From: Sordaria brevicollis
Taxonomy: Eukaryota > Ascomycota > Sordariomycetes > Sordariales > Sordariaceae
Assembly (NCBI GenBank): GCA_033439795.1
Contig: JAUTDP010000016.1
Location: 372,001-436,000, forward strand
DNA: 64,000 nucleotides
Direction of reading: 5' to 3'
Shown: in pieces, positions 394 to 45,621 of the stretch
Numbering within the stretch: position 1 is the first letter of the stretch
How the letters are laid out: each line of letters opens with the position of its first letter
Made by a program: the position numbers and the translations under genes
The notes under the pieces: generated by a model
Told to the model about the DNA's origin: nothing
Seen by the model: the letters and a program-made list of their open reading frames with translations, nothing else
The model's database searches: none

Positions 394-2024
394 ATGTCGC
401 AGCCCCAGAGCAGGCCTCCCACGGGCCAGAAGGGAGATACAGACCCGACTTGGTTTGTGAGGAGCTCGAGAAGGATGGCGGCCATGCAGTGGGTCAACTA
501 TCTGACAGCGAACTATCCCCATTCCGCCGAGGGTCGCGATATGTCTGAGGTGCTCAAGGACATGGCCGAGAAGTACATGTCACAAGACGAGTTCCCTCAT
601 GAGTATGGCGACGGTTGCAACGTCAGGTGGAAGAAATGGTTTGTCCTGAAATTCCAGAAGATGCTCGAGGAGTTGCCGAGAACTATCATGGACTTGGAGA
701 TGGCCATCGACGCAATGGAGCGCCCTGCTCCTTCTGAGCAACATGACGGAATGGGTCTTGCTGCCCGAGGTCCGAGACTGACGTACAACGGCATGAGAAG
801 GTGAGTCTCTGATAACCAAAGCCGCCACCAGCGAGGACACCATCTAATGGCATGGACAGTAACAGGGCGATGGCCATGGCTAGGGGCACCAACGCAGCCA
901 ACATGAACGTCAGCAATGGAGTTCACTTCAGCAATGCTGCCAGGGCCAGCATCCATACCATCAAAGCAGTCAACGTCAACGCCCACACCAGCAACGCCGC
1001 GAACGTTGACAACTCTGCTGACACCGGCACCGATCTTATTACTGCCGCTGTCGACAAAATGAGCTTGGGCTTCTTGACCAACCCCGGCAATGACGATCAA
1101 CTCGTGAACCACAACAGTGCCAGCGCCGACATGAACCGCACCAATTGTGTCAACGGCAATAGCACTTCCATGATGGCTTGGGGTAGCCTTGGTAACAACG
1201 TCAGCAACGGCGCGGGCAACATGAACTCCAACAACAACATTGTCACCAGCAAGAAGCGTCCCTCCGAAGCCCTGGACAAGGGCTACACCAACCACAATGC
1301 TTTGCACTCTAGAAAGCGCGTTGCTATCATGCCAACCAACAACTTTGGCACCGGCATGGGTAACAACCTGGCCAAGAAGATGTCGAACGATGCTGCCAAC
1401 AAAATTAGCAACATCGGCGGCAACTTCATGACCTACGGCGTGCCCAATACCTTTGGCAACAACACCTACGGCGTGCCCCTAGGCTACGCCTACAATGTTG
1501 CCAGTAACGCTGGGAACCCCATTGCCAACGACCTCATCAACAACGCCGGCTTCAACAACATTGGTGACAACCGCAGGAGCAACAACATAGCCAACAGCCC
1601 GCCCATGAACCTGACGGGCCTTCCCACTGCTCGACGTCTCTTCAGCGGTGGTAAGAGTCGAAGCCACTATACCGCCAAATCCGATGTAGGCGGCCCTGCT
1701 CCCACCGATGGTTATGCTGGACTTGGCGCTGTTCGTAAACCGAGTCCTGTTGCGCCCTCTGCTCAAGCTTCTGGCACCATTGCTGCTCCAGGTATGATGG
1801 CTGCCCAGGCCTCGGCTTCGGCTCCGGCTCCGGCTCCGGCTCCAACCGCTGTCAGTCCTTCTGTCAATCCTGCTCGCGCTCTTATTGTCCCTCGTGCTCC
1901 TGCCGCTGCCTCTCCCGATGCCTCTGGCTCTGGCGTTGGAAAGACACAGCCAACAGAGGTAGGTGCCGAGGAGATGGAGATTGGCGATGAGGGAGAGGGC
2001 TCAGAGCCTTCAGGTCGTACCTAG
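394..2024 (+). CDS. A1: Asn-rich array protein with W-K-K-W-F N-terminal domain, 2 exons
   Basis: The CDS is join(394..800, 860..2024), 523 residues. The 59-nt intron has donor GTGAGT and acceptor CAG, and splicing joins two frames exactly across a split AG|T codon. Residues about 30-115 match the array's helical domain: a K-x-M-A-E-K-Y segment, then W-K-K-W-F at residue 79 in place of W-H-E-Y-F, followed by K-F-Q-K-M-L-E-E-L-P. Residues about 140-400 are extremely Asn/Ala-rich low complexity, with basic clusters S-K-K-R-P-S and S-R-K-R-V near residue 267-290 that look like nuclear localisation signals. The tail is Ala/Pro-rich then acidic. The C-terminal beta module of other members is not visible. 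Start 394 follows ATC in a good context; an internal ATG at 478-486 is possible. Family and function are unknown. The gene structure is well supported; a nuclear role is inference. Confidence 0.8.
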
Positions 2025-2955
2025 AGATCCTCCAACGGCGACGACGACGACAACTAGTGTCAGGTTGACATGTTCCGTATATCCACCCGGTATCGCATCG
2101 TTTGAGGTAATGTCAAGGAGGATAATGGTGATTGTCTGAGGCGTAGGTACCTGTATCGGAGGGGTATATTAGCATGGCTTCAGGATTGCAAAGATGGAGC
2201 ACTGGATGGTAGAATACGTGTGTCGCTAGGCTGTGAAGGTGGAAGAGCGTTCCAGGGAAGGGTGAACGGTCAGGGAGGGCGAGATATGTAAACACCACTA
2301 CTCAGCTTTGAAGACAGGGAATGAGCGAAGAAAGCTAGGTCATTAAGGCGGATAGTGTAGTGTAGTCAGAGCCTGGACAACCTGTAGCATGGAAGAATTG
2401 AAGCAACATCAACAAAGATCATTTGAACAGGAAGAACTTTGCAAATTGCGAATGGAATGGCAAGTCCAGAAGCGCGCCATTGCATGACGTGGAAGGTGCA
2501 TATGCCTTGCATCGTGCTCCCCTTTGTCTTTCCGGCATGAAGGCCCGCATTGTGATCCCCTCCTTCCCGCCCGGGCGATGTTTCTTGTTGATGAGTGCTC
2601 CTTCCCTGACCAGACTGAGGCAATTGCTCTGACTGATGCCTAAATGAGGATCGTCGTCGTTGGTGCCGTTGAGAGGGAAGGAGTACTTTGCTGCTCTTTC
2701 CGACGTGCCATCACCTGCCACCAGCTCTTGCCATCCCACTTACCACTTGCATTAAGACGAAGCAATTGCAACTGGCACTGCATGGCAACCTCAGGGGCAA
2801 TATGACTCCACTTGCACGAATATGTCAGCCCGGGCTCATTTCCACGACTCCTCTTTCTCAACCTCACCTTTCTCCGACGGAGTGCTTTCTTTGTCGACCA
2901 CCGTCACTCTCCCACCACACTCACTGCCCAGACTCCAGAAGCAGCAACCAACAAC
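2025..2955. other. A1-A2 intergenic region
   Basis: No supported gene. It contains the A1 3' region and the A2 promoter. Frames on both strands are short shadows without recognisable features. Confidence 0.4.
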
Positions 2956-3672
2956 ATGGCACACTACTTCAGAGACGGCCTTTCCCTAACCGGTGACGAT
3001 GCCGAGCTTCTCGCTGCCCTCAAGGCAATTGCTATCAAGTACCAGCCAAGTCTCTTCAACCCCAACCACGACAAAGAATTGCACCAATTCGTGGTGCTCA
3101 GTCTCCAGAGGCTCCTGCGCGACGCACCGCCCAAGGGCAGCACAGAACTACATCATGCCCTGGCTTTCTTGAAGGCCGATGCATCTCCATATCCTGGCGT
3201 GAAGCCACCTGAAACCTCTAGTACCGTCTCACCACAGCCCATGCCCACAAACCACTCCGTGAAGGATACCGAACATCTACGTGGAAGATCAGCAGCCTTG
3301 TCACCCTCTCCGATCAACAAAAAACGAGCCCAGATGGAGAAATCATCGGCGCCCACGCCACCCGAGAAGCAGGAAAAGATGCCAAACACGCCGAACTTCA
3401 CAGTCCACACCAAAGGCGAATACACTGTCCGCGTCTCGGAAGGCGACAGCCCCTCTCTCGAGTTCAGCATGACCGGGCCAGCCACAATTCAAGTCAAGAC
3501 CGCTACACCATCAAGCCATCTACTGTCTCCTCCCCAAGAACATCTCAACGACAATAACCACGGAGGTGTGCGTTCTGGTCGACGTCCTTGTGGAGCGGTA
3601 CCGGGTACCTTTCATTCCATGGGTCCCAATGATCCCACGCCGGCACCATGCTGTGCCTCCAAGTCTCCTTGA
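2956..3672 (+). CDS. A2: two-domain array protein
   Basis: 238 residues; start chosen at the ATG in ACAACATGG, the same leader context as A5, A8 and A12. Residues 14-58 hold a short version of the family helical domain (A-L-K-A-I-A-I-K-Y ... S-L-Q-R-L-L), with L-H-Q-F-V where others have W-H-E-Y-F. A Ser/Pro linker follows, with a basic cluster N-K-K-R-A-Q near residue 122. Residues 147-182 are the beta module (T-K-G-E-Y-T-V-R-V-S-E-G-D ... M-T-G-P-A-T-I-Q-V-K). About 55 further residues have no family match and may be read-through into ancestral 3' UTR. Function unknown; the pattern suggests a nuclear protein. Confidence 0.75.
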   Translation: MAHYFRDGLSLTGDDAELLAALKAIAIKYQPSLFNPNHDKELHQFVVLSLQRLLRDAPPKGSTELHHALAFLKADASPYPGVKPPETSSTVSPQPMPTNHSVKDTEHLRGRSAALSPSPINKKRAQMEKSSAPTPPEKQEKMPNTPNFTVHTKGEYTVRVSEGDSPSLEFSMTGPATIQVKTATPSSHLLSPPQEHLNDNNHGGVRSGRRPCGAVPGTFHSMGPNDPTPAPCCASKSP

Positions 3673-4672: not shown

Positions 4673-5392
4673 ATGCCGGGCCAAGTGAACCCGGACCAAG
4701 TGAACCCGGACCAGGCGGTCGAAGCCTTTGTACGATACATCCAGAGCGCCTACGACCCCAACAACCCGGATGAACAGTGGCTCGTGGAAATCCAACGTGT
4801 GCTGCGCGGTCTCGCAATTGCTTATGAGACCTTATCACCTCTCGACGGAAGCGACAGGTCGAACCTCTGGCATGAGTACTTCTCAAAGGGCCTCGACACC
4901 TTCCTTCACACTCTTCCTGGCAACAGCAACGAGACCATTCGCCGGGCCAACGAACTCCTTGACCGTTACTCCGCGGGAGACGGAGTTCCTCCTCCTGGCA
5001 CCAACGCGCGGTTCATTGGCACTTTGTATTCCACGATCGCCGGTGGTAGCCGTAGCAATGGACCTGCTGCTCAACATGGCAATCACGACGAGGTTCCCGA
5101 GGTCCCTGAGGTCCCCGTAGCCGCTCCCGCAGCCGCTGAAGCTCGTGCTTCCCAGCCGAGGGAAATCATGCAGATTGAGCAAGAAGGCGGATTGGTGTAC
5201 GCGCTGGGCCCGGGTGAACAAATGTTTGTCCAATATACCGACCTGAAGGGAAACACGCCCAGTGTCAACGAGTATGTTTACAAAGGTCCTGCCGTTGTCA
5301 AGTTCATGAAGGGCGATGGCAGCAAGCGTCTTCCTGCTGCTGCTGCTGGCACTGCTGCTGCTGGCACTGCTGAAGACCCTGTTGAGCTTTGA
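4673..5392 (+). CDS. A3: array protein with W-H-E-Y-F domain
   Basis: 239 residues, single exon. The protein begins with a duplicated G-Q-V-N-P-D-Q / V-N-P-D-Q stretch. Residues 13-100 are the helical domain: W-L-V-E-I-Q-R-V-L-R-G-L-A-I-A-Y, then W-H-E-Y-F at 66-70. A Gly/Ala linker containing V-P-E-V-P-E-V-P-V follows. Residues about 172-222 are a divergent beta module (G-P-G-E-Q-M-F-V-Q-Y ... K-G-P-A-V-V-K-F-M-K-G-D). The C terminus is an Ala/Gly repeat encoded by GCTGCTGCTGGCACT units. The last 80 bp of coding sequence plus the following 50 bp recur as a non-coding fragment at about 7000-7135. Function unknown. Confidence 0.8.
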   Translation: MPGQVNPDQVNPDQAVEAFVRYIQSAYDPNNPDEQWLVEIQRVLRGLAIAYETLSPLDGSDRSNLWHEYFSKGLDTFLHTLPGNSNETIRRANELLDRYSAGDGVPPPGTNARFIGTLYSTIAGGSRSNGPAAQHGNHDEVPEVPEVPVAAPAAAEARASQPREIMQIEQEGGLVYALGPGEQMFVQYTDLKGNTPSVNEYVYKGPAVVKFMKGDGSKRLPAAAAGTAAAGTAEDPVEL

Positions 5393-6029
5393 GTGAGAGA
5401 GGGTCTACCTGGGTCGACGGTGATGGACGAAGTGTTGTTGTGTAAGTCTTCCTTTATACCGTTTTCTTTATTCGAACCCACGTGAAACATACTAATACCG
5501 TTCCATCCAACAGCACACAGAAATGAAGGTTCGACCTTTGTATTGGGCCTCACGGTTACTCTCCGATAATCTCGGCTACAGTACGAACTTTCGATTACGA
5601 TCACTTCTTTTCCCCTTTTGTCCTCTACTTTACCCTCATTGTAGAGAGCAATAAGTTGATAGCTCTTTGAACGACTTCCATCCAAATGCCACCCCTTCCA
5701 TACAATGTCATGTCCGCTTGTTTTGTTGAAGATAATACAACATTCAAGTGGTCCCTCTTTGACCCAGGTTCCTATCTTCCTTTGAGATGTAAACACGTAG
5801 TTCTGCGACTGCCTAATATAATTGCCTGTCACTCTTTAGTCAACCACTATATAATCCCCCTCCCCCTGATCCTAGATCGCTCTCTTGTACTCTCTAACTT
5901 CCAACTCTTGACCTAACCATCAAGCGCTCCAGTCTTCAACTGCCATCAACATCAAGTAGATTCAATCATTCTCTTTCCAAATACAAACAAACCTTCGCCC
6001 TCCAGCCTCTTAACCTAACACACATCGTC
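5393..6029 (+). promoter_or_regulatory. A3 3' region and A4 promoter with TATATAAT
   Basis: TATATAAT lies at 5848-5855, 182 bases before the A4 start, followed directly by a C/T-rich run. The preceding bases read TCAACCAC. The stretch from about 5732 aligns with the region upstream of A5 (about 7590-7780), so this promoter was duplicated with its gene. A GTAAGT at 5440 with a CAG near 5513 could be a 3' UTR intron of A3. Confidence 0.6.
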
Positions 6030-6752
6030 ATGTCCTCATCACGCGACTACAACACATACCTCATGCCCCATTCAGAGGCCAGCATGAACAACATAACAAT
6101 AAAAGAAGCAGGCCAGCGGATGGTCATCTACCTACAGGGCTCATTCCAATCCGACGACTGGCAATTCGAAATCGCCGAAGCGCTGAAAAAATTCGGCGCC
6201 AAATACGAAGACTTGGCGATCGCCAACGAGGCCATCTACAAAGTCAAGGTCGGAAGCGGCATCATGGATTATTGGCACAGCTACTTTATCCTAAGTCTCA
6301 ACAAGATTGTTCGAGAGCTGCCGGCTAACGAGCTTGAGGTTATCAAGGAAGTGGTGGAGAAGTTGGAGAGAGAGGAGGTTGAGGCCAAGGCTGGAAAGAT
6401 TGGGGGGAGGGTGGTTTTCCCTCTGCCTCTGGCACTCCCGAAAGATGAATTAGATGACGGTGGAAAAGATAACGACAATGCGCGACGACGGCCTGCTAGT
6501 ATCAAGATGTGGAAACGGAGCACGAGGGCAACCGACGAAGGAGGAGAAGTCTCGGATATGGTGGACATGGATGGTACCTCTAGAGGTACCTCTACCTCTA
6601 CCTCTACCTCTACTTCTACCGAGGACATGGAAGAAGAATGGCCCAGTAAGCGCGCCAAAATCGACAGCGACAAAAGTGGAAGTAATAACAACAACAACGG
6701 GTTTATTACCTTTAAGACTGCGGGGGCTTATGCGGTTCGTACCTATTCATGA
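6030..6752 (+). pseudogene. A4: array gene truncated by a frameshift in the beta module
   Basis: The open frame gives 240 residues. Residues about 25-110 are the helical domain (W-Q-F-E-I-A-E-A-L-K-K-F-G-A-K-Y, W-H-S-Y-F at 82-86, I-L-S-L-N-K-I-V-R-E-L-P), very close to A5. The linker has a Thr-Ser repeat from TACCTC units, then S-K-R-A-K-I (NLS-like) and poly-Asn. The beta module starts normally (F-K-T-A-G-A-Y-A-V-R) but stops three codons later. The missing part continues in another frame downstream to about 6830 (N-S-S-K-L, D-G-H-G-P-V-T-V-T-V). Compared with A5, there are 10 bases between the CGT codon and the next matching codons where A5 has 6, a net gain of 4. Either the gene is decaying or it makes a protein with a lost C-terminal module. 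Confidence 0.75.
6574..6591. repeat. 18-bp perfect palindrome inside A4
   Basis: GGTACCTCTAGAGGTACC is its own reverse complement and leads into five TACCTC-type units that encode the Thr-Ser repeat of A4. Similar GGTACCTCTA stretches occur at 21002, 27391 and 49401. Confidence 0.85.
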
Positions 6753-6997
6753 TGATACCGATAACTCGTCTAAGCTCAAGTTTGATGGTCATGGCCCTGT
6801 TACGGTGACGGTGTATGAAAAGGAGAAGGAGAAGGATACAGGGGGGATGATTTATGTCCTGCTCATCCTGCTCTGGGCCCGGGGCGGCCGCGGAATAGCT
6901 CTAGTGGGGGGGACGAGGTGAAGGGGGGAGGTCTAGTTTAGGATGTGGCTTAGGTAGTTGTACCTGGGATGTCACGATACCTCTAGCTTCTTGAGTT

Positions 6998-7135
6998 GGT
7001 ATGTACACGAAGCTTATAAAGGTCGATGGCAAGCGTCTTCCTACTACTGCTGCTGGCACTGCTGAAGACCCTGTTGAGCTTTGAATGAGTGTCTACTACA
7101 CTGGGTCGATGGTGATGGTCAAACTGTTCGTGTAA
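6998..7135 (+). pseudogene. Duplicated 3' fragment of A3
   Basis: About 135 bases match the end of A3 (about 5270-5440). They include GATGGC..AAGCGTCTTCCT, shorter GCTGCTGGCACT repeats, the A3 stop region, the downstream CTGGGTCGA..GGTGATGG and a GTAAGT. There is no start codon or upstream A3 sequence. It marks the junction of a tandem duplication that copied the A3 end, a promoter and A4 to give A5. Confidence 0.8.
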
Positions 7136-7889
7136 GTTGTCCCTTGTTTTTGGCTGTCTGTGGCAGCTTCTCTTCTTGGGAGTCAAGATTCAATTGCTGA
7201 TAGCGGATGAAAACGAGTGGAAGTTCAACTTCGGTATTGAGCCTCGTGGACACCTTTGCGATGTAACCTCCGGGAATATACGCTCTTCGAGGGACGCACT
7301 CGGGGGGCAGGGTCGTTTCACTCCGCGGTGACACTGCCCGCGGAGCATCTCCCCTCTTCGAAACCTTGATCTCGTCCGTAGTGTAGAGCTGCGCAATTCT
7401 ACCCCTTCTTCTGCCTTTCTCTCCCATACCCATGTCGTGGATGGTAAACGGGCTGCTAGGTAGCCATCCAATCCATTTCCGTCCAAATTCCCAGCGTTCT
7501 AGACTGTTAGGTGGTACATATAGGCATCCAAGCCCATTTCCATCCATATCCCAAACGTTCAACTTTGTGACCGCTAGTTCAAGTCCAGATGATACAACCA
7601 TCAAGTGATTCCCTTTTCATCCAATTACCCTCAACTTCTTACAAACAAGTAGTTCTGCTAGCGCCGAGGAAGAGTTCGTGCCGCCCCTCGTTCAACTACT
7701 ATATAAACCCCCCTTCCCTCCTTCCCACAACTCGTTCTCTGGCGCTCTCACTTCCAATCTTGAGGCTCCCCAACAAGCTGTCCAACCTTCTTTCAGCAAA
7801 TCCTCCAACCTCTAAGCCTGTTACACGTTTTCAAGTTCTTATCACGATACTCTTATCAGATCTGATTGACAAGGAAACTAGAAGGCAAC
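7136..7889 (+). promoter_or_regulatory. A5 promoter with TATATAAA
   Basis: TATATAAA at 7700-7707 lies 190 bases before the A5 start. It is preceded by TTCAACTAC and followed by CCCCCCTTCCC, closely matching the A4 promoter. The block from about 7590 to 7780 aligns with 5732-5930 upstream of A4. Nothing in the earlier part is supported as coding. Confidence 0.6.
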
Positions 7890-8546
7890 ATGGCTGAAGT
7901 CTCGAGAAATGATGCAGCCAGAAGCATGATCAGCTATTTGGAACAAGAGTTCGATTTCGAGGACTGGGAGTTTGAGATTGCCGAAGCTCTCAAAAAGTTC
8001 GGTGTAAAGTACGAAGAGTTATCAGCCTTGGATGACAACAAGCCGGAGGACGACCCTTTACGCTCCAAATGGCACGATTACTTTATCCTCAGCCTCAACA
8101 AAATCGTCAGAGACCTACCGTCAAACAACCTCGACGACGTCAGCCAGGCAGTGGAGAAGCTTGAGCGTGAGGACATTGAAGCCAAAGCCAAGAAGCACGG
8201 AGGCCGTGTGACCTTTCCCCCGAAGAACGAGAACAACAAGCGACCTGCCGAGGTTCAAACCAACCAAGAGATCTCGGACACCCCGGAGGAGCCCGCCAAC
8301 AAGCGCGCCAAAACCGACAAAGACCGTGGCCTCACCTTCAAGACTGCGGGCGCCTATGCGGTTCGTATCACCGACGACGCCGACAACTCGTCCAAGCTCA
8401 ACTTTGATGGTCATGGCCCTGTTACTGTGACCTTGTTCGAGAAGGACTCCGCTCCGGTCCCTGGTTTGACCAACTCTCGCCTCCCCAACGGTTTGAAGGT
8501 CAAGGTGCTTGTTCCACCCCACGTAGGAGCTTCTAAGCACCTCTGA
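7890..8546 (+). CDS. A5: intact reference member of the array family
   Basis: 218 residues from the ATG in GCAACATGG. This is the clearest two-domain member. Residues about 5-95 are the helical domain: W-E-F-E-I-A-E-A-L-K-K-F-G-V-K-Y-E-E-L, W-H-D-Y-F at 61-65, then I-L-S-L-N-K-I-V-R-D-L-P and a charged helix. The linker has N-K-R-P-A and N-K-R-A-K-T (NLS-like, near 136). Residues 148-187 are the beta module: F-K-T-A-G-A-Y-A-V-R-I-T-D-D-A, then F-D-G-H-G-P-V-T-V-T-L-F-E-K. A 30-residue tail has no match. It is the closest paralogue of A4 and shares its promoter. Function is unknown; a small nuclear protein-binding protein is a reasonable guess only. Confidence 0.85.
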   Translation: MAEVSRNDAARSMISYLEQEFDFEDWEFEIAEALKKFGVKYEELSALDDNKPEDDPLRSKWHDYFILSLNKIVRDLPSNNLDDVSQAVEKLEREDIEAKAKKHGGRVTFPPKNENNKRPAEVQTNQEISDTPEEPANKRAKTDKDRGLTFKTAGAYAVRITDDADNSSKLNFDGHGPVTVTLFEKDSAPVPGLTNSRLPNGLKVKVLVPPHVGASKHL

Positions 8547-9874: not shown

Positions 9875-10474
9875 ATGCCCACAATCACCTACGTCCCCGT
9901 GCCCCCCGACGTCCAGTTCCGCCTCCTGCACTCGATGCACATCGAGCTCGGCTTCGTCAACAGGATGGATAAGTTGCTGGGCGAGATGGAGGCTGTTGAG
10001 GCGGAGGAGCACATGCACAAGGGCGGTCGCCTGCGTGGTGGTGGTAAGGGTAGGAAGAAGTCTCGCGGTTCTAAGAATAAGGGTGGAAAGGATAAGGGCA
10101 ACAATAAGGAGAAGGAGAAGGCTGGCGCCGAGGTTGGTGCTGGCGTTGAGGCTGGCAAAGACGTTGGCGCTGGCAAGGGCGAGGGTACTGGCAAGGCCGA
10201 GGGTACCGGCGTTGGCGTTGAGGCTGGTGCTAGTGCTGGCGTTGAGGCTGGCAACGCCGAGGGTACTAACGAGGACGCTGGCGCTGGCAAAGTAATTGTT
10301 TCTGAAAGTGGTCCTGGCAAGGACGTCCTATTTACTTATAAGGACGCCGGCAAGGATGCTGGCAAGGACGCTGGCAAAGGTGCTGGCAAAGACACTGGCA
10401 AGGGCAAAGATGCTGGCAAGTCCGATACCGCCGGTGGTGACAAGGCCAAAGAGAGCGGTTCTACCTCTGCCTAA
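9875..10474 (+). CDS. Gly/Ala/Lys-repeat protein, not recognised
   Basis: 199 residues. The first 50 residues are ordinary sequence (P-D-V-Q-F-R-L-L-H-S-M-H-I-E-L-G-F-V-N-R-M-D-K-L-L-G-E-M-E) predicted to be helical. A basic Gly/Arg/Lys patch follows (G-G-R-L-R-G-G-G-K-G-R-K-K-S-R). The remaining two thirds is an A-G-K-D / V-G-A-G / E-G-T-G repeat. No W-H-x-Y-F box and no beta module are visible, so I do not count it as an array paralogue, although it lies on the same strand between A5 and the transposon block. The repeats are imperfect at the DNA level (GCTGGCAAGGAC-type units), so length variation between strains is likely. Function unknown. Confidence 0.7.
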   Translation: MPTITYVPVPPDVQFRLLHSMHIELGFVNRMDKLLGEMEAVEAEEHMHKGGRLRGGGKGRKKSRGSKNKGGKDKGNNKEKEKAGAEVGAGVEAGKDVGAGKGEGTGKAEGTGVGVEAGASAGVEAGNAEGTNEDAGAGKVIVSESGPGKDVLFTYKDAGKDAGKDAGKGAGKDTGKGKDAGKSDTAGGDKAKESGSTSA

Positions 10475-10938: not shown

Positions 10939-10946
10939 AAAGGAAA
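10939..10946. repeat. Left target-site duplication of the Mutator-like element
   Basis: AAAGGAAA here and again at 16839-16846, immediately outside the inverted termini. A ninth base is G on the left and A on the right, so the original site may have been 9 bp. Confidence 0.8.
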
Positions 10947-11849
10947 GGGGTATACTCGATGTACGCCATAGAATCCTATAAATACGCCAATTTCTAAATA
11001 AGTGGGCCCGTGATAGTTGATGTTACTTATTATCGTAAACTCTATTTTTAGCCGTAAAATTTTACGCTTTCGATGTATAAAATATTTCCCCGTATTTATT
11101 AGCGCGCTATAAGTATTTAATAGGTAGGGTACCCCCTAATTCTATATACTTCCTATTTCCCCTTTTCAATTTAGATTATTATATAACTATTAAATTACGT
11201 ACCCTCCTTAATTATATTCTTTAATACTCCTACTAAATTTTACCCGCTCTATATAGTTAGTATATATCTATTTAATATTATTATTATTATTATTATTATT
11301 ACGTTAATTTAATTATTTATAGATATTTAGTAATTATTGCGACTATTCTCTTACCCTCTTTATCCCCTTTTCTATAACGATATTCGATTTTATTTTTAAC
11401 GACCCTTCGCTATTATAATAATTATAATCCGAATTGCAATCGTTATCGTAAATATAACGTATATAGGAAGTTTTAACCGACGATAAATATTTTAAAATCG
11501 TTGCTATTAAGGATATAAAGTTTTAATATAAAGCCTTTATTTCTTTTTATAAACGGCGCCGTTTTAATTTTATTACCATTCGAAATAAAAAATATAAGGG
11601 AGTAATAATTATAATTATTTTACAATACGATCGAACGAAGCTTAAAAAGAAATACCCCAATTAATAAAGAGTTAGGAAACGGCGTATATTAATTATTAAA
11701 ATTATAAACTACTTATTCTAAATATAAATACGCTATTACGTTTATAACGATTAGAAATATTCGATATATTTTATTAATTTAATTTATTAAAGTTATCGAT
11801 TATCCTATAATATATTCTAATACTTTTTTTTACGGCGGTAGGTTATTAA

Positions 11850-14949: not shown

Positions 14950-16352
14950 ATACTACCTCCTTTAATAAATCCGTTAATAATTTTATTAAGGGCTATAATA
15001 TTTCGCCCCGCTATAAGTTAGTCGTTATTTTTAAAATTTACGTTTAATATACTTATTACTAATTGTAAGTATTTAAATAAATAATTATTCGTATTAAGTT
15101 TAGGGTATAATTGCGTTTTATTAATTATAATTGGTTAGGGGATTATCCGTTCGAATTAACCTTCTAGGCGTTAAATTTATTTAATTAGTAGTATTATATT
15201 TATATTACTTTTATACTATTAATTAATATAATATTTAGGGAGGAGTATATTATACCCTTACTTCTATATATTAGGTAGTTTCGAATTTAGTATAATTTAC
15301 TTTATATTTATAAAATAATTGAGCGAATAAAGGATAATTAAATGGCCTTAGTAATTAAAGCGGATTATTACTCGTTTTAATATTTATAATAAAGAAGAGT
15401 AAATATTCCTTTACTTTAATTAGCGCCCTTTATAAATATTATTTTAATTATTTATATAATAATAATAGGATAAAACTAATAAATATTTACGTATACGCCC
15501 CTTTTTAAAGGTTACCCCTAAAGGTAGGCTATTTAAATAAGGTAATCCTTTTAATAACGAAAAAATTATATTAGAGATTTAAACTTAAATTAAAGCGCTT
15601 TTTAATTTTTATAGTAAAATAAGGATTCGAAGCGGCGCTATAATAATAAGTACGCGCCGTTATTATTTATAATATAAAGTTAGGTTTAGTTTCGAAATAA
15701 TAAATGCGGCCGACGAATAAGAGAGGGAGAGGGAAAAAGAAGGAGAAGAGGAGGTTATATAGAATTATATTAAAATTATATAATTATTTAATTCCGAATC
15801 CCCTTTCAAATTTAAATCTTCGGTTAATAAAAATAAAAGTAACTTAATTAGCGATTAAAGTAATTTAATTCGACCTACCCCCTATAAACGCCGCCGCAAT
15901 AACGTTAAACTCTCTTATAATTCTAGCTTTAATTTTCTTTATTTATCCTAATTCGACGATAACGAAATTATAAATAATAGTATACGCGCGATTAAAAAGG
16001 AAAGGATTAAATTCAACGAAATTTACAATATTTAATTAATATAGGAAATAAAGAGGTTATTAGCTATATTTATAAACGAGGTTATTATTTTTAATTAATT
16101 AGATTTATATAACCCAAATCTACGTACGGTTTAATTAAGTGTAAATAAGGATAAGGCTATAATTTTAAATTAGCGACCTTCTATTTTATTTACTTTTTAT
16201 CGATATATACGTTTTAGGAGCTTTACTTTGCTTTATTTTATTATAAGTCTTGAAGTGTGTGTTGTGTAGTATAATGCTATCAAATGGGGACCCTTGTTAG
16301 ATGTTAGAAATATTTCGTAACCCGTTTTTTATATTTAAAACGGCCTGTTTTA

Positions 16353-16763
16353 GAGCTTAACTTACCGCACCGGGGTCAATGTCCTTATGTACCCTTTTTT
16401 GACTTGATGCACCCTGCGCACGGACCAGACGTTTTCAAATGTAAATTTCTTTCGAAAAACGTCCCGAACTTTCACCACCAAAAGGTTATAGCACAACGGC
16501 CACTCCATCCTAATACTTATCAGAAGTTCAACTCTATAATTATTACCAATGGCTAATATATTGGCTATATACCACTTTTGAAATCTAAAAGACCTTTTTG
16601 CAATAATACGTCGATATAATTATGTTGGGCAGGATTTCCATTTCCTTTCGAAAACGATCTCTTACATTATAAAACGACGATAGTTTCATTACATATAAAA
16701 AAGGGTGCGCGAAGTCAAAAAGGGTGCACGAGGATATTGACCCCGGTGCGGTAAATTAAGCTC
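16353..16763 (-). mobile_element. 411-bp inverted-repeat element, copy 1
   Basis: The ends are GAGCTTAACTTACCGCACC and its inverse, continuing as GGGGTCAATGTCC and a TGACTT..GCACCC block, so the terminal repeats are about 60 bp. Flanks are CTGTTTTA (16345-16352) and CTATTTTA (16764-16771), an 8-bp duplication with one G/A change. Including one more base gives a 9-bp match, so the superfamily (hAT or Mutator) is open. The interior is non-coding. Its left part matches the right part of copies 2 and 3 inverted, so it lies in the opposite orientation. It is inserted inside the MULE. Confidence 0.85.
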
Positions 16764-16846
16764 CTATTTTATATGTCAGCTGTTATTTTGGAAATTGGCG
16801 TGTTTATAGGATTCTATGGCGTGCATCGAGTGCACCTCAAAGGAAA

Positions 16847-17139: not shown

Positions 17140-17147
17140 TTTGATTT

Positions 17148-17558
17148 GAGCTTAACTTGCCGCACCGGGGTCATTGTCCTCATATACCCTTTTTGACTTC
17201 GCGCACCCTTTTTTACATATAATAAAACTATCGTCGTTTTATTGTATAAGAAACCGTTGTCGAAATGTAATAGAAATCCTCACGCAACCGTTTACTTAAA
17301 CGTCCCATGGAAAAAAGCCATTGAATATTTGAGAAGGGTAAATATTCATTTTCTCACCGTAAAAAAAATAATAGCATTTTTCTTTCAAAGAGAATTCTCA
17401 ATGAGGAGTAGCCGTTGCGTTTTTAACTTTTGCCTCTAAAAGTTTGGAACGTTTTACCTGGGAAATTTACTTTTGAAAACGGGTGGTCCGTGCACGGGGT
17501 GCATAAAGTCAAAAAAGGGTGCATAAGGATAATAACCCCGGTGCGGTAAGTTAAGCTC
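17148..17558 (+). mobile_element. 411-bp inverted-repeat element, copy 2
   Basis: Exactly the same length as copy 1, with ends GAGCTTAACTTGCCGCACC and the inverse of GAGCTTAACTTACCGCACC. Flanks are TTTGATTT (17140-17147) and TTTAATTT (17559-17566), an 8-bp duplication with one G/A change. Its right half contains GTTTGGAACGTTTTAC, shared with copy 3. Non-coding, presumably non-autonomous. Confidence 0.85.
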
Positions 17559-17591
17559 TTTAATTTAGTGAGATCTCCAATATATTTCGTG

Positions 17592-18394: not shown

Positions 18395-18402
18395 GTTTCG
18401 TA

Positions 18403-18905: not shown

Positions 18906-18913
18906 GTTGAAAG

Positions 18914-19271: not shown

Positions 19272-19279
19272 GTTAAAAG

Positions 19280-20111: not shown

Positions 20112-20119
20112 TTCAACAA

Positions 20120-20521: not shown

Positions 20522-20647
20522 TTCAACAAAGAAGTCGCGCATGACACAGCGCTTTCTAACCACCTAGTCTTTGAAGTTGGGCTCTCCCGGTCGCGTTCCC
20601 TTCGCTTTCTTTCCACTGACATTCAGCCAAGCATTCCCACAGGCAAA

Positions 20648-21344
20648 ATGGACCAGAGCCTCGATCTCGTGCCCTGGACGGCCAAGGAGGTGGACAGAGA
20701 GGAGGCCTGCGACAACTTCATGAGCCTCCTTGAGGCCGACTGCTGCGACAACAACTGGAACACCAAGCTTGCCGTCCGTCTCCAGGCCATCGCCATGAAG
20801 TACCGCGAGCTCGCCGGCAACTGCGACGACCTGGACTGGCACGAGTACTTCGAGATGAGCTTCCTCAAGTTCTTGCTCGACGTGCCCGAGAGCCCTGACG
20901 AGCTTAAGGTCGCCCTCAAGAAGCTCAACGAGGTCGAAGCCAAGTTCGCCGTTTCCAAGCGCGGCGTCGATGTCGAGGTCGTCTCCAACACCCGTGACGT
21001 CGGTACCTCTACCTCCGTCCTCCGCCGCTCTGGATGCCGCTGTTGCCCTCGAGGCGAGCGCCGGGGGCGACGATCTTGTGCTCGCCAAAGTCGCCAAGAA
21101 GGTCGTCGAGTACCTGGCCGACGACAACAACGAGGAGCGCCCAAGTAAGCGCATTAAGCTCGAAGGCCAGAAGGCGGGTATCTTCGAGCTCAAGGAGGAC
21201 GACACTCCGTGCACGATCCGCGTCCTCTCCCGCGATGGCAAATCGGCCAAGCTCGACATCACCGTACAGGATACCGGTGACAGCAACATGATCGTCAAGA
21301 TCCACAAGAAGGATGGTGGTGCTACCATAACTGTCGAATTGTGA
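20648..21344 (+). pseudogene. A6: array gene with a frameshift in the linker
   Basis: The frame opening at 20648 carries the helical domain (residues 16-98: W-N-T-K-L-A-V-R-L-Q-A-I-A-M-K-Y-R-E-L, W-H-E-Y-F at 64-68, F-L-K-F-L-L-D-V-P) and runs on to 21148. A second frame, shifted by one base, is open across 20970-21344. It carries the rest: A-V-A-L-E-A-S-A-G-G linker, P-S-K-R-I-K-L (NLS-like), then a beta module (T-I-R-V-L-S-R-D-G-K-S-A-K-L-D-I-T-V) and a second strand pair to the stop. The switch lies near GGTACCTCTACCTCC (21002), a slippage-prone repeat. No GT..AG intron fits. It is a broken gene or an assembly error in the repeat. Confidence 0.7.
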
Positions 21345-21957: not shown

Positions 21958-22743
21958 ATGGACAGCCACGAGAGGGATCATAGAGAAGCAGCGGCGTCGT
22001 ACTTGGTCAAGATACTGGAAACAGAGCCAGAAGGACATGACATGGAGGAGAGCGAGCTCTTCAAAGCTCTCACAGACTATGCGGCTAAATACCTTGAACA
22101 CAAATACCACTCCAACTGGCATGCGTACATGGTCCTTGGACTTGCGAAGCTTGCCACAAAGTCGCCCTCCATTAACGAGTTGGAGGATGCCGGTCGGACC
22201 TTCCGAGACGAGAGATTCAAGCGGCTCGTACCTATAGCTATTCCGGTCAAACGCGAACCCAACCCCAGTCCCCCTCCTCGCCGCGTCAAAGTCGAACCCA
22301 GTGAGCCTCAGTCGCATCGGGCCCCAATCCCAGCCAACATTCGCCCCGGCAACTACTTACCTTTTGTGGTACCGAGGCACCGATACACTCCCCCCCAGAC
22401 CAGTGTCCTGCCTCATAAACAATACTATCTGGAAAACAAATGGCGCAGACAGGAAGCCCACGAAGCCCAAGCCAATCCCAACGGCAAAAGACCTGCCGAC
22501 GACGCGAAGCAAGCCGAACAAGCGCCCGCGCCCAAGAAGCGTAATGCACATATTACCCCAAAGAAGCATGCCACTCAAACTGCCACTGATGCTGGACGGG
22601 ATGGCTTCAGCGTCGAAACTCAGGGACATATCACGGTGCGCATCTCTGATGACACTGAGAGGACGTCGATGTTCAACCTCAAGGGCAGTGGTTGGGCTAC
22701 GGTCACCGTTAATGTTGAGAGGAAGGAGGACGCTGCGAAATAG
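21958..22743 (+). CDS. A7: array protein with long basic linker
   Basis: 261 residues. Residues about 8-80 are the helical domain: E-L-F-K-A-L-T-D-Y-A-A-K-Y-L-E, W-H-A-Y-M at 54-58, V-L-G-L-A-K-L. The linker is long, Pro-rich and basic, with two psi-K-x-E sumoylation-type sites (V-K-R-E near 97, V-K-V-E near 110) and clusters G-K-R-P-A and K-K-R-N-A. Residues 217-256 are the beta module: T-Q-G-H-I-T-V-R-I-S-D-D-T, then L-K-G-S-G-W-A-T-V-T-V-N-V. Sumoylation and nuclear location are inferred from motifs only. The gene appears intact. Confidence 0.85.
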   Translation: MDSHERDHREAAASYLVKILETEPEGHDMEESELFKALTDYAAKYLEHKYHSNWHAYMVLGLAKLATKSPSINELEDAGRTFRDERFKRLVPIAIPVKREPNPSPPPRRVKVEPSEPQSHRAPIPANIRPGNYLPFVVPRHRYTPPQTSVLPHKQYYLENKWRRQEAHEAQANPNGKRPADDAKQAEQAPAPKKRNAHITPKKHATQTATDAGRDGFSVETQGHITVRISDDTERTSMFNLKGSGWATVTVNVERKEDAAK

Positions 22744-23338
22744 GGTACATGTATTTTGAGCTGGACACACGACAGGATGGAATTGTTTGGTGTACTTCTA
22801 GGCAGCTTTCTTCCTACAACGGCTAAGGGCCATCGCCAAACTGTAAGATAGAGGTATCATCCTATATTGATCAAAGCTTCAGTCCCGCTTGTCGAACCAC
22901 AATTGTTGGAATTTTACGTTCCGTTTTGGTGCTCATACTTGCTTGTTTGACTTTCATTGCAGACTCTCGGTCTGATGTTCTCGGATGATTTGGCGGAGAC
23001 AGCCTCCCCAGCGTGATTCTATCTCCTTTCTGAACTCGGATGATATCAGTTTGATTACAATTGTTTGTGTGAAGGAATCGGTAGTCGAAACAAACGAAAC
23101 AGGACGAGTACCGTCAGGCTGTTGCCTAGCGCCACTCGGTTCACCTGTTCCTCTATAAATACCCCCCTCCCCCTTCCACTTATTTCCACTTCCACTTCCA
23201 TCCATCAACATTCGACTACAGTACTCCACTTCCCAATCCCCCGTACACCTCTTCCTCGCTCGCAAGTCACTCACATTTGTCACTGTTGCAATGAACCCAT
23301 TCTCACCTTCCACCCAGCTTTTGAGCAGCCAAGACAAC
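22744..23338 (+). promoter_or_regulatory. A8 promoter with TATAAATA
   Basis: TATAAATA at 23154-23161 is followed by CCCCCCTCCCCCTTCC, as in A4 and A5. Counted to the ATG at 23339, the spacing is 185 bases, against 182 (A4) and 190 (A5). This supports that start over the upstream ATG at 23291. Confidence 0.6.
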
Positions 23339-23863
23339 ATGGTCAACAACGACGCCGAGAAGTCGAAGGAACTACGAGCAATTGAATCATTCAAGAGGTG
23401 CCTCACCAAGGACTGTTGGGCGTACCCATGTTGGCAGGCCGAACTTTCGGAAGCTCTCAGAAGTCTTGCCTTCAAGTACGAGGAGCTTTCCCCGCTAGAT
23501 GATACGACTAGAGGCGTCTATGACGGGATGGGATGGCACAACTACTTTATTCTGAGTCTCCAAAAGCTCATGAGAGGCATGCCTTCGGATAGGGCCAATT
23601 TGAATAAAGCTCTCAAAGTTCTTAGGAGCGATGAAGCTGCCGCCGAAAAGCAGGATTTGGAAGCGGAGGATGTCATGGAGCATGTCGGGGAAGCAGAGAA
23701 TGAATCGATCCTGATCGGTAGTTACGGAGTCGACACCAATGGCTCCATTACCGTGACCATCTCTGACGACACCAAAACCTCAAGCTACGGCTTTCCCGAT
23801 TGCGGTTCTGCTCTTGTGGATGTCAAGATCTACCAGAAACACTCAAATGCTCCTGCCCTGTGA
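23339..23863 (+). CDS. A8: short two-domain array protein
   Basis: 174 residues from the ATG in GACAACATGG; an in-frame ATG at 23291 would add 16 residues. The helical domain spans about residues 10-100: W-Q-A-E-L-S-E-A-L-R-S-L-A-F-K-Y-E-E-L-S, W-H-N-Y-F at 66-70, I-L-S-L-Q-K-L-M-R-G-M-P. The linker is short, acidic and lacks an obvious basic signal. Residues about 127-167 are the beta module: T-N-G-S-I-T-V-T-I-S-D-D-T, then C-G-S-A-L-V-D-V-K-I-Y-Q-K. It is close to A5 in both domains and in promoter layout. Function unknown. Confidence 0.85.
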   Translation: MVNNDAEKSKELRAIESFKRCLTKDCWAYPCWQAELSEALRSLAFKYEELSPLDDTTRGVYDGMGWHNYFILSLQKLMRGMPSDRANLNKALKVLRSDEAAAEKQDLEAEDVMEHVGEAENESILIGSYGVDTNGSITVTISDDTKTSSYGFPDCGSALVDVKIYQKHSNAPAL

Positions 23864-24901: not shown

Positions 24902-25627
24902 ATGTCCTCGACATCCAGCGACGACATTCCCGACTCCCTCCTCCAGCGTCTCAAGGAAGAGTATGAGGACGACCCCGTCGAATGGGCGCTCGACATCTCC
25001 AAGCTTTTTCAGCGAATCGCCGCCGACATGAAGCAGTTCGCCCAGGGGTACGAGGCTCCCGATAGCCCGCTGCGGTCTTTCCACCGCGTCGCTCACTTGC
25101 TGAAGAAGCTGTCAACCGATCACGCAATGATCGACGAGCTTCGCGGTGTTGCCAACATTTCTTCTCGTCGCGATGAGGAGGCCAGCGCTTCTGCCAGCCC
25201 TCCCAGTCCTGCCAGTCCTGCCAGCCCTCCCAGCCCGGACAGCGCTTCCTTCGGTCCTCTCTCAGAGGCCGACACTGCTGAAGTTCACGACGACGACGCC
25301 AACCACTCCGTCCCCGACGATGTCCATCCCACCACTTGGCAGCAGCTGTCGACCCAGACCTCCTCGCCTTTCACCTTCGAGGCCAAAACCGGATTCTCCA
25401 TCCTCGTTACGGAGAACCCTCCTGTCTCGGCGGTTGATAACATGACGCTGGGCGGCTCCGGCCCGGCTACCATCAAGATTTTTGTGTCGAAGACTGTTGT
25501 CCCCCAGGACGATACTTCGGTTGTTAGCTCTAGTAACGGCAGCCATAACAACAACAATGTTCCTGTTGGTTTTGGTCCCGAGCCGGAGAATAGGCCTTTT
25601 TTCAGCTTGTTTGATGATTTAGAGTAG
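24902..25627 (+). CDS. A9: divergent array protein with Ser/Pro linker
   Basis: 241 residues from the ATG in CAAGATGTCC. The N-terminal helical domain is recognisable but worn: W-A-L-D-I-S-K-L-F-Q-R-I-A-A-D-M-K-Q-F, then F-H-R-V-A-H-L-L-K-K-L at about 59-69 in place of the W-H-x-Y-F box. The linker contains an S-P-P-S-P-A-S-P-A-S-P repeat and an acidic stretch. Residues 157-197 are the beta module: F-E-A-K-T-G-F-S-I-L-V-T-E-N, then G-G-S-G-P-A-T-I-K-I-F-V. A Ser/Asn tail ends F-F-S-L-F-D-D-L-E. No basic nuclear signal is obvious. Function unknown. Confidence 0.8.
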   Translation: MSSTSSDDIPDSLLQRLKEEYEDDPVEWALDISKLFQRIAADMKQFAQGYEAPDSPLRSFHRVAHLLKKLSTDHAMIDELRGVANISSRRDEEASASASPPSPASPASPPSPDSASFGPLSEADTAEVHDDDANHSVPDDVHPTTWQQLSTQTSSPFTFEAKTGFSILVTENPPVSAVDNMTLGGSGPATIKIFVSKTVVPQDDTSVVSSSNGSHNNNNVPVGFGPEPENRPFFSLFDDLE

Positions 25628-26505: not shown

Positions 26506-27276
26506 ATGGCGTCGATCACTCAAGAAGCAATGTTAGAGTGGAAAGATTTGATAGAGAGCCTCCACGACATACACATCCAAGCGATCGAATCAAACACCGA
26601 ATCTGGAGGTGAAGCTCACGGAAACGTGATGACTCGAATTAAGGAAGTTATCGAAGACGCGTTACCGAGTGCCGAACATTCTCGGAAGCTGCAACGCGGA
26701 CAAGAGGCAGAAAGAACAGACTATATCGAACCGGGAACCGACGAAATGAACGCCAGAACAAACGACGATGTCAACAATGGCGGTCACACCGCGACTACCT
26801 CCCCTAGATCATTGTACGCGGTGACGGCAAGAACATCACAGGAACCGGAGCCTACTCTCCGTGTCGAGAGCCACGCTGTCGTCGGAGTGCACGTCGAAGC
26901 TCTCGGCGCCGTCCAGCTCAACACCACAGCAACTCTCATGTTTGACAACATTGCGGATGACGAGAACTCCACGGAAAATGATCCCAAAGAACTGGTCAAG
27001 TTTCGCTTTTGTGTTCCTGCCGACGATTGTAGCTGCTCGGTTAGAACGAAAGCTTCTGCCAGTGTTATGATCCGCTTCGATAAGTCTTCTCGTGTATACG
27101 TGAGGAAGGACGCCAAGTTCTCAGAGTTTGAGCTGGAGGGGCTCATCAGCTTTGCGGGGGGTGATGCGGGAGGAACGACCTTGGTGGCTAAGTCGGATAC
27201 CATTTTGCACTGTACGATTGAGGGAGCTGCGATTGTTGAGGTGATTACAGGTCGGGGCTTTGTGGAGGAGGGATAG
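26506..27276 (+). CDS. A10: array protein with extended beta region
   Basis: 256 residues from the ATG in AAAAAATGGC. The N-terminal 60 residues are helical (W-K-D-L-I-E-S-L-H-D-I-H-I-Q-A-I-E) but the W-H-x-Y-F box is lost. The C-terminal part (about 116-250) is longer than the usual module: P-T-L-R-V-E-S-H, C-V-P-A-D-D-C-S-C-S-V-R-T-K-A-S-A-S-V-M-I-R-F, V-Y-V-R-K-D-A-K-F, S-F-A-G-G-D-A-G. It aligns along its length with A12. Alternating hydrophobic residues suggest stacked beta strands. It shares promoter blocks with A12. Function unknown. Confidence 0.8.
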   Translation: MASITQEAMLEWKDLIESLHDIHIQAIESNTESGGEAHGNVMTRIKEVIEDALPSAEHSRKLQRGQEAERTDYIEPGTDEMNARTNDDVNNGGHTATTSPRSLYAVTARTSQEPEPTLRVESHAVVGVHVEALGAVQLNTTATLMFDNIADDENSTENDPKELVKFRFCVPADDCSCSVRTKASASVMIRFDKSSRVYVRKDAKFSEFELEGLISFAGGDAGGTTLVAKSDTILHCTIEGAAIVEVITGRGFVEEG

Positions 27277-27743
27277 GTTGCTTCTTTTGTTTTGCAATTT
27301 TTCGACTACGCGTCATCACTACTAGATAATGAGTCGTGCCAGCGACGACGGCTGCGCATAAGAGGTTGCTTCTTTAAAGATGCAGAATAGGTACCTCTAT
27401 GTACATGTGCTTTTGACTTCCAAGGAGAGGTACCTCCAGCCTTGTGACTCACGTGGCAGTAGCGTTTGGAGTATTTAGAGGTAACCTGTGCCCACAACCA
27501 TCAAATGCACTTGAAACTCCCCCACTTTGTTGCATTCCTCTCTCCTCTCTTTCAACCAGGCACTTCCCTTCGCCAAGCTATCCCTTTCAGCGACACGACA
27601 TCTTTTCCCCATTCAAGCACACGCACATTTGAGTGATTGAGTCGCCTTAATATTCCACGGTACTTCCACGCCCCATTGCCCATCTTCAGACACTCATCTT
27701 TCCAGCTTCTAACTGTCACAGAAAACCAGAGTCTATACAAAAC
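27277..27743. other. A10-A11 intergenic region
   Basis: No gene seen. It contains several AGGTACCTC motifs (27390-27435) and a pyrimidine-rich leader before A11. Confidence 0.4.
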
Positions 27744-28334
27744 ATGGCAACCACGGAAAATTCTCCCTCAGCGTATGAGATCCTTCTCACACACGCAGGC
27801 AAAATGTACACGAAAAAGCGACCTATCAACCAGCAGTCTTCCACTTCCCCAAACGACCTCAAACCGCCCACTCTCCGCATCCACCTCGACAAAACGACTT
27901 CGCTCACCGCCGTGCTCAAAGCCATCACCAGAACCCACGCCACAGGCCCCGTCGAGCTCAGCATGGCCAAATACCCCGAGTTCAACAACTTTGTCATGTC
28001 GACTGTTGGACCGAACGACCATCTCAAGATCGCAAGCGGCACGGGTAGCGAAGTGGAGGTGAAGGTGCGCGACGGCGGTGTTGTCTCGTTCGAGACTCTT
28101 CCTGGTCAAAGTCTCTCCATTGTGTATGGCGGGTCAGGGCTCGCGATGGAGCAGGTGGACGAAGATACCCCTTGCATGATCAGATGCGTACCCAGCAGCA
28201 TGTCTGGATGTGTGGTTTCGGGTGGGAAGATTCCGGGTCTTATTTACTATCGGGGTGGTGACCCTACGGACATCTCGTTTGAGACTCCGGGCGATGAGAA
28301 GGTCACGTTTGAGGTTGTCGCGGTGGCCGATTAG
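27744..28334 (+). CDS. A11: array protein with beta region only
   Basis: 196 residues from the ATG in AAACATGGC. The helical domain is reduced to about 20 residues (A-Y-E-I-L-L-T-H-A-G-K-M-Y-T-K-K-R). From about residue 43 the protein is beta-rich: P-T-L-R-I-H-L-D-K-T, then V-G-P-N-D-H-L-K-I-A-S-G, V-E-V-K-V-R-D-G-G-V-V-S-F, and P-G-D-E-K-V-T-F-E-V-V. The opening P-T-L-R matches A10 and A12 (P-T/Q-L-R-V), so I read it as the same extended region with the N-terminal domain lost. Membership is inferred from this and from its position. Function unknown. Confidence 0.75.
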   Translation: MATTENSPSAYEILLTHAGKMYTKKRPINQQSSTSPNDLKPPTLRIHLDKTTSLTAVLKAITRTHATGPVELSMAKYPEFNNFVMSTVGPNDHLKIASGTGSEVEVKVRDGGVVSFETLPGQSLSIVYGGSGLAMEQVDEDTPCMIRCVPSSMSGCVVSGGKIPGLIYYRGGDPTDISFETPGDEKVTFEVVAVAD

Positions 28335-28888
28335 GGTCACGGTGTGATTTGGGACTGGATGTCAACTTGGGGAGGTGGGAAGCACTCAGATGCAAGCGAC
28401 GGTTACGGGAAATTTAGTGGAAGGAAGCATTCGAGTCCATGGATCTTGGCGTGTTGCGGAGGAAAGTGCGTTGTGGTGTACTTTAACTTGAGGAAAGTGG
28501 GGGCTCGTGATGTTGATTAGCACGGAAACAGCGAACAGTCACTCAACCAAATGAAGTCCCAGTTTTTCCCCAGACTCCAAGACTTGGTTCCATAATTTTA
28601 GGGCTTTGACCCCGCTTGTTCTTGGTCCATCCATGGAGCCGTCGATCAAAATACCTCAACTTTGTTTCGCATGCCCGTTTTCCACGACAAGACGACATCG
28701 CGATTTGGTCCCTGAGTCACAATAGTGACTACCACTGGTGAGTGCTTTCAGGTTATGCCCGCTTTATGCGCTACTCTGACAAACTTGTGCTTTTACAGGG
28801 AAGACCACTATCTGCACGCATAAGCTTTCAAGTGCCGCGATCCGGCGTCCGTTCCAGCTTTCGGCCTTTGCCCATCTTCGCGAACAAC
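28335..28888 (+). promoter_or_regulatory. A11 3' region and A12 promoter
   Basis: Contains the CATTCGAGT ... CGGAGGAAAG block (28425-28485) and TTTGACCCCGC (28609), both shared with the A10 upstream region, pointing to duplication of gene plus promoter. Confidence 0.55.
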
Positions 28889-30035
28889 ATGGCGCCCGCC
28901 ACCAGTGATATGAAGTGTCATTGGAGGTGGGCAATGGAAGACCTCGCAGACAACTATACGCAAGCAGTCGAACGGAATGCCCATAGCGGCGCTGAGTGGC
29001 ACGAATACATGGAGGCTCGCATCACAGATCTTAACATCGCTACCATACCAGCACGGAACCGGTTGCCACCCAGGCACGAACCGATGCCACTCTGGCGAGC
29101 TCCGAAGAGAAAACACCCCGAGCCGGAGAAGGACATGGACGCCAACACTGCCAACAATACGATCATCGTCCAACCGCCATCGACCAAGGCGGCCAACAAA
29201 ACATCTGCAACCCCCGATCCCCAACTTCGTGTAGAAACCACCGGCAGCCTCAATCTGCAGGTCGAGTCCCTGAAAGACGTTCTTGTTACCAGCCCGGGAA
29301 ACGTTACCTTGGGACCCGTTCGCGAGCCCGAGTTCTTGGACACTGAGCCAGAAGACCGTGTTAGGCTTCACATCACTGTCCCTCCCGATAGCAACGCCTT
29401 GGTGAAGACGAATGCCGCGGCTAAGATCATGTTGCGCTTCAACGGTACTTCCAAAGTCTTTGTTAAGAAGGATGCGAACTTTGCCAACGTGCATCTCCAT
29501 GGCGACACTACCTTTTCTTTCGGTGGTGATGCAGACAAGACTCTGCTTGTTGCGCAGGCCAACGCTTTCTACCACTTTGCGACTGATGCTTCGTTGGTGA
29601 TTGAGGTGGTTACGGGATCAGAAGACCAAGAGAACGAGGAGGTTACCTCCATGCATCCCGACGAGACACGGGAGGAAGAAGAAGTGGTTGCTCCTCCCAA
29701 CAAGAAGCAGAAGATGTCACCCCCCGAGGACATTGCTTCACCAGTAATGACGCCCGAGGAGCGTTATGCACGCAAGGAGGTATGTCACCACTTGAGGCTC
29801 CGTTCCAAGCCATAGGACTTGCTAACTTACACCTGCTTGATTACAGCGCGAAATCTTGTTTCTACGTCACAAACTTCAAAAAGGGCTACTCCAAAGGGAC
29901 CAGAAGCCTGACCCCGAGTACATGAAGATCATGTCTGAGTTTATGACAAAACTAGAGGGCTTTCAGGACCTGGAAGCTAGCATTATCAACATCACCAAGA
30001 TTCATAAGGTGATGAAGGCGATTCTGAAGCTTTAG
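28889..30035 (+). CDS. A12: chimeric array protein with a LEDGF/TFIIS-N-like tail, truncated by TAG
   Basis: The CDS is join(28889..29779, 29847..30035), 359 residues; the intron has donor GTATGT and acceptor TTACAG and is phase 0. W-H-E-Y-M lies at residue 37. Residues about 111-245 are the extended beta region, aligned with A10. A basic N-K-K-Q-K-M follows. From about 290 the sequence (E-E-R-Y-A-R-K, L-R-H-K-L-Q-K-G-L-L, M-S-E-F-M-T-K-L-E-G, D-L-E-A-S-I-I, T-K-I-H-K-V-M-K-A-I) resembles the C-terminal helical domain of filamentous-fungal PWWP-type proteins, related to the LEDGF integrase-binding fold. That domain should continue, and it does: after the TAG at 30033 the same frame stays open for 36 codons to 30146 with R-A-E-A-M-L-I-K-F-N-S-I-L. 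The stop therefore looks new. The domain call is from memory of the family and needs a profile search. Confidence 0.75.
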
Positions 30036-45611: not shown

Positions 45612-45621
45612 AACCATCAAA

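Follow-up and report, generated by a model that had tools for sequence, protein, structure and literature searches.

An old head-to-tail array of divergent paralogs, with a chimeric gene, in a fungus close to Neurospora

A stretch of 64,000 nucleotides from the genome of Sordaria brevicollis (contig JAUTDP010000016.1, here C8, positions 372001-436000; we call this whole stretch the window, and its position 1 is C8:372001) carries a head-to-tail array of divergent paralogous genes. The array has at least ten supported members over about 32 kb (C8:363.4-395.9 kb) and reaches back some 9 kb beyond the upstream edge of the window; all ten members lie on the + strand and are adjacent. The host is a fungus very close to Neurospora, with a whole genome of 53.1 Mb in 27 contigs; the closeness is seen in a TOM40 exon whose product matches PDB entry 5o8o, from N. 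crassa, at 206 of 214 positions. The best explanation overall, in which we place moderate confidence, is an old, lineage-specific array of head-to-tail genes encoding soluble, perhaps nuclear, adaptor proteins. The evolutionary part of this explanation is very probable, and the nuclear-adaptor part is tentative and rather doubtful.

A survey of open reading frames (ORFs) in the window found twelve on the + strand that match the genes A1 to A12 of an earlier, sequence-only reading (Table 1), which had assigned all twelve to one two-domain family. We built a profile of the N-terminal domain from A3, A4, A5, A6 and A8 and searched it against the 1994 six-frame ORFs of C8:302001-456000. Among ORFs that were not seeds, the profile matched A1 (expect value (E) 1.3e-7), A2 (2.9e-6) and A7 (0.0036), and it also matched two ORFs that sit 7-9 kb upstream of the window, U3 (C8:363084-364151; 2.2e-7) and U2 (C8:364265-364858; 1.8e-6). 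When each of these ten members was left out in turn, all ten were found again at E values from 9.4e-26 to 5e-5, and the best ORF outside the set scored 0.1-2.3. The N-domain profile supports eight of the twelve named genes, A1 to A8, together with U2 and U3, far beyond chance. The claimed homology therefore stands for A1 to A8; A9 and A12 are weak, A10 is supported only as a relative of A12, and A11 is unsupported. We also searched the whole genome in six frames with A5, A7, A8, A11, A12 and U3; introns were ignored, so the results are lower bounds. Convincing relatives of these six array proteins were found only at the array locus.

Table 1. Genes of the array and the stretch shared with a second locus, in window positions
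Feature	Position	Strand	Description	Leave-one-out E
A1	exon 394-800, intron 801-859, exon 860-2024	+	N-domain; intron from splice sites and frame	1.6e-12
A2	2956-3672	+	N-domain and beta module (seed)	4.7e-7
A3	4673-5392	+	N-domain	6.3e-13
A4	6030-6752	+	N-domain	3.3e-21
A5	7890-8546	+	N-domain, basic linker, beta module	9.4e-26
A6	20648-21344	+	N-domain in frame open to 21145	8.3e-13
A7	21958-22743	+	N-domain, long basic linker, beta module	3e-7
A8	23291-23863	+	N-domain, short linker, beta module	2.7e-17
A9	24902-25627	+	weak candidate member	
A10	26506-27276	+	relative of A12 (E 1.7e-28, 31% identity)	
A11	27744-28334	+	same-strand ORF; family homology unsupported	
A12	exon 28889-29779, intron 29780-29846, exon 29847-30035 ending in TAG	+	weak N-domain, region shared with A10, C-terminal helical domain	
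Stretch common to A12 and the PWWP-protein gene on contig C27	29748-30077	+	blastn 71% over 336 columns, E 3e-35	

In the supported members a helical N-terminal domain of about 95 residues is followed by a variable linker, frequently charged, and five of them carry a short beta module at the C terminus; the frames of unbroken members run to about 190-300 codons. Mean identity between N-terminal domains is 23% over 45 pairs, and the closest pair, A4/A5, reaches 50%. The motif W-H-x-Y-[FM]-x-x-[SG]-L-x-K, said by the sequence-only reading to end this domain in most members, is present in its exact form in 4 of the 12 proteins (A4, A5, A7 and A8) and in its short form, W-H-x-Y, in 7 (A3 to A8 and A12), so that "most" is right for the short form alone. 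The beta module, which had likewise been described as shared, was significant in A2, A4, A5, A7 and A8 and not in the other seven. The profile for this module was seeded with A2, A5, A7 and A8, so that A4 is the sole significant case outside the seeds (E 3.4e-10). Nothing in the long Asn/Ala-rich tail of A1 scored with the beta profile, the C-terminal part of A3 was not significant (103 of 1000 shuffles were as good), and for the C-terminal part of A6 10 of 1000 shuffles were as good.

Two of the supported genes have interrupted frames. Compared with A5, A4 changes frame by a single base near 6748, as judged by reading, and its beta module is carried on in the frame 6454-6921. In A6 the homology switches frame within the overlap 20859-21148, and the C-terminal part lies in the frame open from 20859 to 21341. 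No intron was recognised at this switch, which is either a frameshift or an unrecognised intron.

Pairwise comparisons point to old members that evolved under constraint. The proportion of nonsynonymous differences (pN, 0.29-0.51) was below that of synonymous differences (pS, 0.69-0.92) in all five pairs compared, four of which share A5. Ratios of nonsynonymous to synonymous rates (dN/dS) were about 0.32 for A10/A12 and 0.37 for A6/A5; these rates are rough, because three pairs have a saturated pS and the remaining two a dS of about 2. Age, with synonymous change near or past saturation, explains the low identity among members. The selection for divergence proposed in the sequence-only reading is unsupported, given that pN lies below pS in each of the five pairs.

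Traces of how the array may have grown lie between A4 and A5. At 7043-7145 (+) lies a 103-base duplicate of the A3 3' end, 81% identical to 5351-5455, which we take to be a scar left by tandem duplication. The sequences ahead of A4 and A5 match at 70% identity (5791-5937 against 7643-7790). Together, the copied end of A3 and the similar upstream regions suggest that the duplicated unit was the end of one gene plus the next gene. A TATA box followed by a run of C (CTATAWAWNCCCCC) occurs at 5847, 7699 and 23153 (+), upstream of A4, A5 and A8, and these are all of its sites in the window; 0.73 sites were expected with one mismatch allowed, and 2 of 100 shuffles reached three, for a pattern picked after the sites had been seen. 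The earlier suggestion that some promoters had been kept is borne out for A4 and A5, to which the box before A4, A5 and A8 can be added with that qualification. We propose that the array grew at least partly through tandem duplication of gene-plus-flank units.

Repeat-induced point mutation (RIP) acts on duplicates above about 80% identity, and its signature marks AT-rich islands around the array blocks. In five such islands, TpA/ApT is 1.17-1.34 and (CpA+TpG)/(ApC+GpT) is 0.20-0.24, except in the island at 16-19.2 kb, where the latter is 0.68. The three array blocks are without the RIP signature (TpA/ApT 0.69-0.79; (CpA+TpG)/(ApC+GpT) 1.01-1.17). The differences between A4 and A5 are also not RIP-like, with 131 C>T/G>A against 157 T>C/A>G changes among 546. 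With stops masked, the islands yielded no significant RIP-degraded extra copies in a profile search; the best new place was a short beta stretch at 10989 (E 0.45). We propose that the copies have, for the most part, diverged below the identity threshold of RIP. The picture given by the sequence-only reading, of an old tandem family that has no Pfam match over cut-off and is kept in a genome with RIP-type islands, is upheld. An AT-rich island also contains an inverted repeat of about 412 bases (16352-16763 and 17148-17559, 75% identical).

The most unusual feature of the array, and a new one, is the chimeric gene A12. Over 62 residues its last exon (29847-30032) is 79% identical to C27:2294830-2295015, part of a gene whose exons, as read here, encode a PWWP domain (PF00855, E 1.6e-9). 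The DNA similarity of the two genes spans an intron at the same place, so the copying took place at the DNA level, without an mRNA step; we infer that the copy went from the C27 gene to A12. At the shared part, the C27 gene has a TFIIS-N/Med26 Pfam match at E 0.018 (15.3 bits, below the cut-off of 20.6). The A12 tail itself gave no Pfam TFIIS-N/Med26 match, and the A12 main ORF gave no PWWP match. An in-frame TAG at 30033-30035 cuts the A12 frame; the C27 gene reads a sense codon at this place, and the similarity runs on past it. The TFIIS N-terminal domain of LEDGF reportedly binds a motif in the elongation factor IWS1 (PMC13175633). A12 resembles such LEDGF-type proteins, with their PWWP and TFIIS-N/IBD-like domains, in that its tail is so close to the C-terminal domain of the host's PWWP protein; it differs from them in that its main ORF is without a PWWP match and a TAG truncates its copy of the domain.

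A9 and A12 are weak candidate members of the family. With the N profile, 0 of 1000 shuffles were as good as A9 and 1 of 1000 as good as A12, and the figure for an unrelated control ORF was 5 of 1000; with the beta profile it was 2 of 1000 for A9 and 1 of 1000 for another control ORF. Given these control values, the shuffle results for A9 and A12 are suggestions only. In profile-profile comparison, A12 with A10 had P values of 0.012 and 0.023 and A9 had 0.045, and hhalign put the probabilities at only 1-4%. Among ORFs outside the set, A12 ranked first in 7 of the 10 leave-one-out runs, at E 0.1-2.3. A match to the N-terminal part of A12 on contig C4 (E 0.094) was treated as chance. A11 returned only itself from the whole-genome search and gave no match with the family profiles.

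Two further ORFs without proven membership lie among the core members. U1 (C8:370653-371465), just upstream of the window, has a similar layout by eye and failed the profiles; the other, a Lys/Gly/Ala-rich repetitive ORF inside the array and on the same strand (9875-10474, +), gave no sign of kinship with the family. Outside the array, an ORF with a long acidic tail and no Pfam match (43194-43943, -) contains a short stretch weakly like the array beta module (1 of 1000 shuffles; E about 6).

Searches of Pfam, the PDB and prokaryotic and viral sequences placed the proteins in no known family. None of A1 to A12, U1, U2 and U3 matched a Pfam family over cut-off, the nearest being DUF3568 in the second frame of A6 (E 0.0063, 17 bits against 23.2). 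A5 had no relative in prokaryotic genomes or viral contigs. Sequence profiles of the PDB gave nothing credible (best E 0.012 and 0.03), and the domain tail reached E 0.27 at best against the PDB. A structural model of A5 has four helices and beta strands, in keeping with the proposed two-part layout, at low confidence (predicted local distance difference test score (pLDDT) 61, predicted template modelling score (pTM) 0.28), and Foldseek found nothing at E <= 0.001 for it in the PDB or among viral models. For this low-confidence model VIA-align returned BAR domains, look-alikes of the N-terminal domain in fold, along with further bundles of helices, all with Z scores of background level. The A12/A10 model reached a pLDDT of only 36.

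The proteins are probably soluble. The highest mean hydropathy over 19 residues was 1.09 across the twelve sequences, with no long hydrophobic stretch; this measure took the first exon of A1, the first frames of A4 and A6, and A12 without its last exon. Given this, the helical domain, the charged linkers and the beta modules of some members, soluble adaptors are the simplest reading. The array proteins would be intracellular and perhaps nuclear adaptors, in which the helical domain would bind one partner and the beta module or another tail would give a second, variable contact. In A12, this second contact would have been extended by the gain of the TFIIS-N/LEDGF-IBD-like helical domain of the PWWP protein. 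The adaptor function is a guess from sequence features. A nuclear location is suggested by the A12 domain and by basic motifs, the latter not special by shuffling. A bolder version, which we consider quite unlikely, is that the array is a workshop of chromatin-linked adaptors, set in a genome where young duplicates are destroyed, in which early divergence saved copies, tail swaps gained partners and A12 gained a link to the elongation machinery.

Several results weigh against the adaptor-array explanation. The basic motif K[KR]x[KR] is present in 4 of the 12 proteins (A4, A5, A6 and A12) and in none of them exceeds shuffled sequences (P 0.20-0.36), so the nuclear location that had been drawn from basic linkers gains no support from this test. 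The N-terminal domain of A12 is not significant on its own, and the domain captured by A12 is interrupted by the TAG. U3 gave 11 matches outside C8 (E 2.5e-4 to 4.2), 10 of which overlap its acidic run; we read these as probable low complexity. Fold searches, made with a low-confidence model, returned common helical bundles only. Finally, the broken, shifted or truncated frames of A4, A6 and A12 suggest that part of the array may be decaying.

Such frames would be expected if the locus were a decaying birth-and-death cluster that once had a role and now consists mostly of relics of little effect. The one-base frameshift of A4, the frame change of A6, the in-frame TAG in the shared domain of A12 and the AT-rich RIP islands that interrupt the cluster all fit this account. 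However, unbroken members keep their frames of about 190-300 codons, amino-acid change is lower than a synonymous change that is near or past saturation, and the A4 beta module is conserved beyond the frameshift, which makes that break recent or an assembly error. We therefore regard a mostly relict cluster as unlikely. An allorecognition or selfish-element array, in which strain-specific incompatibility or spore killing would keep divergent copies through conflict, seems less likely again. Confinement to one locus and the presence of broken frames are consistent with it, but the array ORFs scanned contained no Pfam domain over cut-off, HET and toxin domains included, nor any transmembrane-like stretch, and pN lies below pS.

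Fast-evolving tandem families in fungi are often secreted, which would make the proteins secreted effectors or cell-surface proteins. This is highly improbable here: by the hydropathy measure alone, the best 8-residue value near the N terminus is at most 1.51 in 11 of the 12 proteins, and the peak of A2 (2.17) lies inside the region aligned to the helical domain. The possibility that the members are chance ORFs or non-homologous, for which the little shown by A11, and by A9 and A12 on their own, might speak, is refuted for the ten core members by the leave-one-out results, in which no member scored worse than 5e-5 and no outsider better than 0.1, and we give it next to no weight. An old array of constrained, probably soluble proteins is the reading we prefer.

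Elsewhere in the window, an ORF at 40807-41913 (+) without a Pfam match has three imperfect repeats, each holding the core A-A-F-H-T-P-P-x-H-R-F-x-R, and a small ORF at 45448-45969 (+) resembles a CCCH-type zinc finger (PF18345, E 0.0026), with a score that falls short of the curated cut-off. Among the ORFs scanned, which cover part of the neighbourhood, no HET-domain gene was recognised.

The array is a long member of a kind already described for Neurospora crassa. The paper by Kasuga et al. (2009, PMC2684829) reports 82 adjacent pairs of orphan paralogs, 73 of them head-to-tail, with a mean identity of 36.1% and without traces of RIP, as well as clusters of five or more, and holds RIP to have all but ended the birth of new genes by duplication in Neurospora. 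Our array is likewise adjacent, head-to-tail, low in identity and without a RIP trace. It differs in its lower mean identity (23% between N-terminal domains, as given above) and may differ in its position: the N. crassa clusters lie near telomeres; the array is 363 kb from one contig end, and no run of telomere repeats was seen in the 3 kb examined at each end of the contig. Neurospora lineage-specific gene clusters, as presented by Wang et al. (2023, PMC10684091), often group paralogs, with large non-coding spaces and frequent duplication; the array shares these features and differs in that no HET-domain gene was recognised among the ORFs scanned beside it. Beyond Kasuga et al., titles and the opening lines of abstracts gave nothing on this family.

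With at least ten constrained paralogs at one locus, the array shows how an old family can persist in a genome with RIP. The A12 chimera offers a concrete route by which an orphan gene may gain a domain of a conserved chromatin protein.

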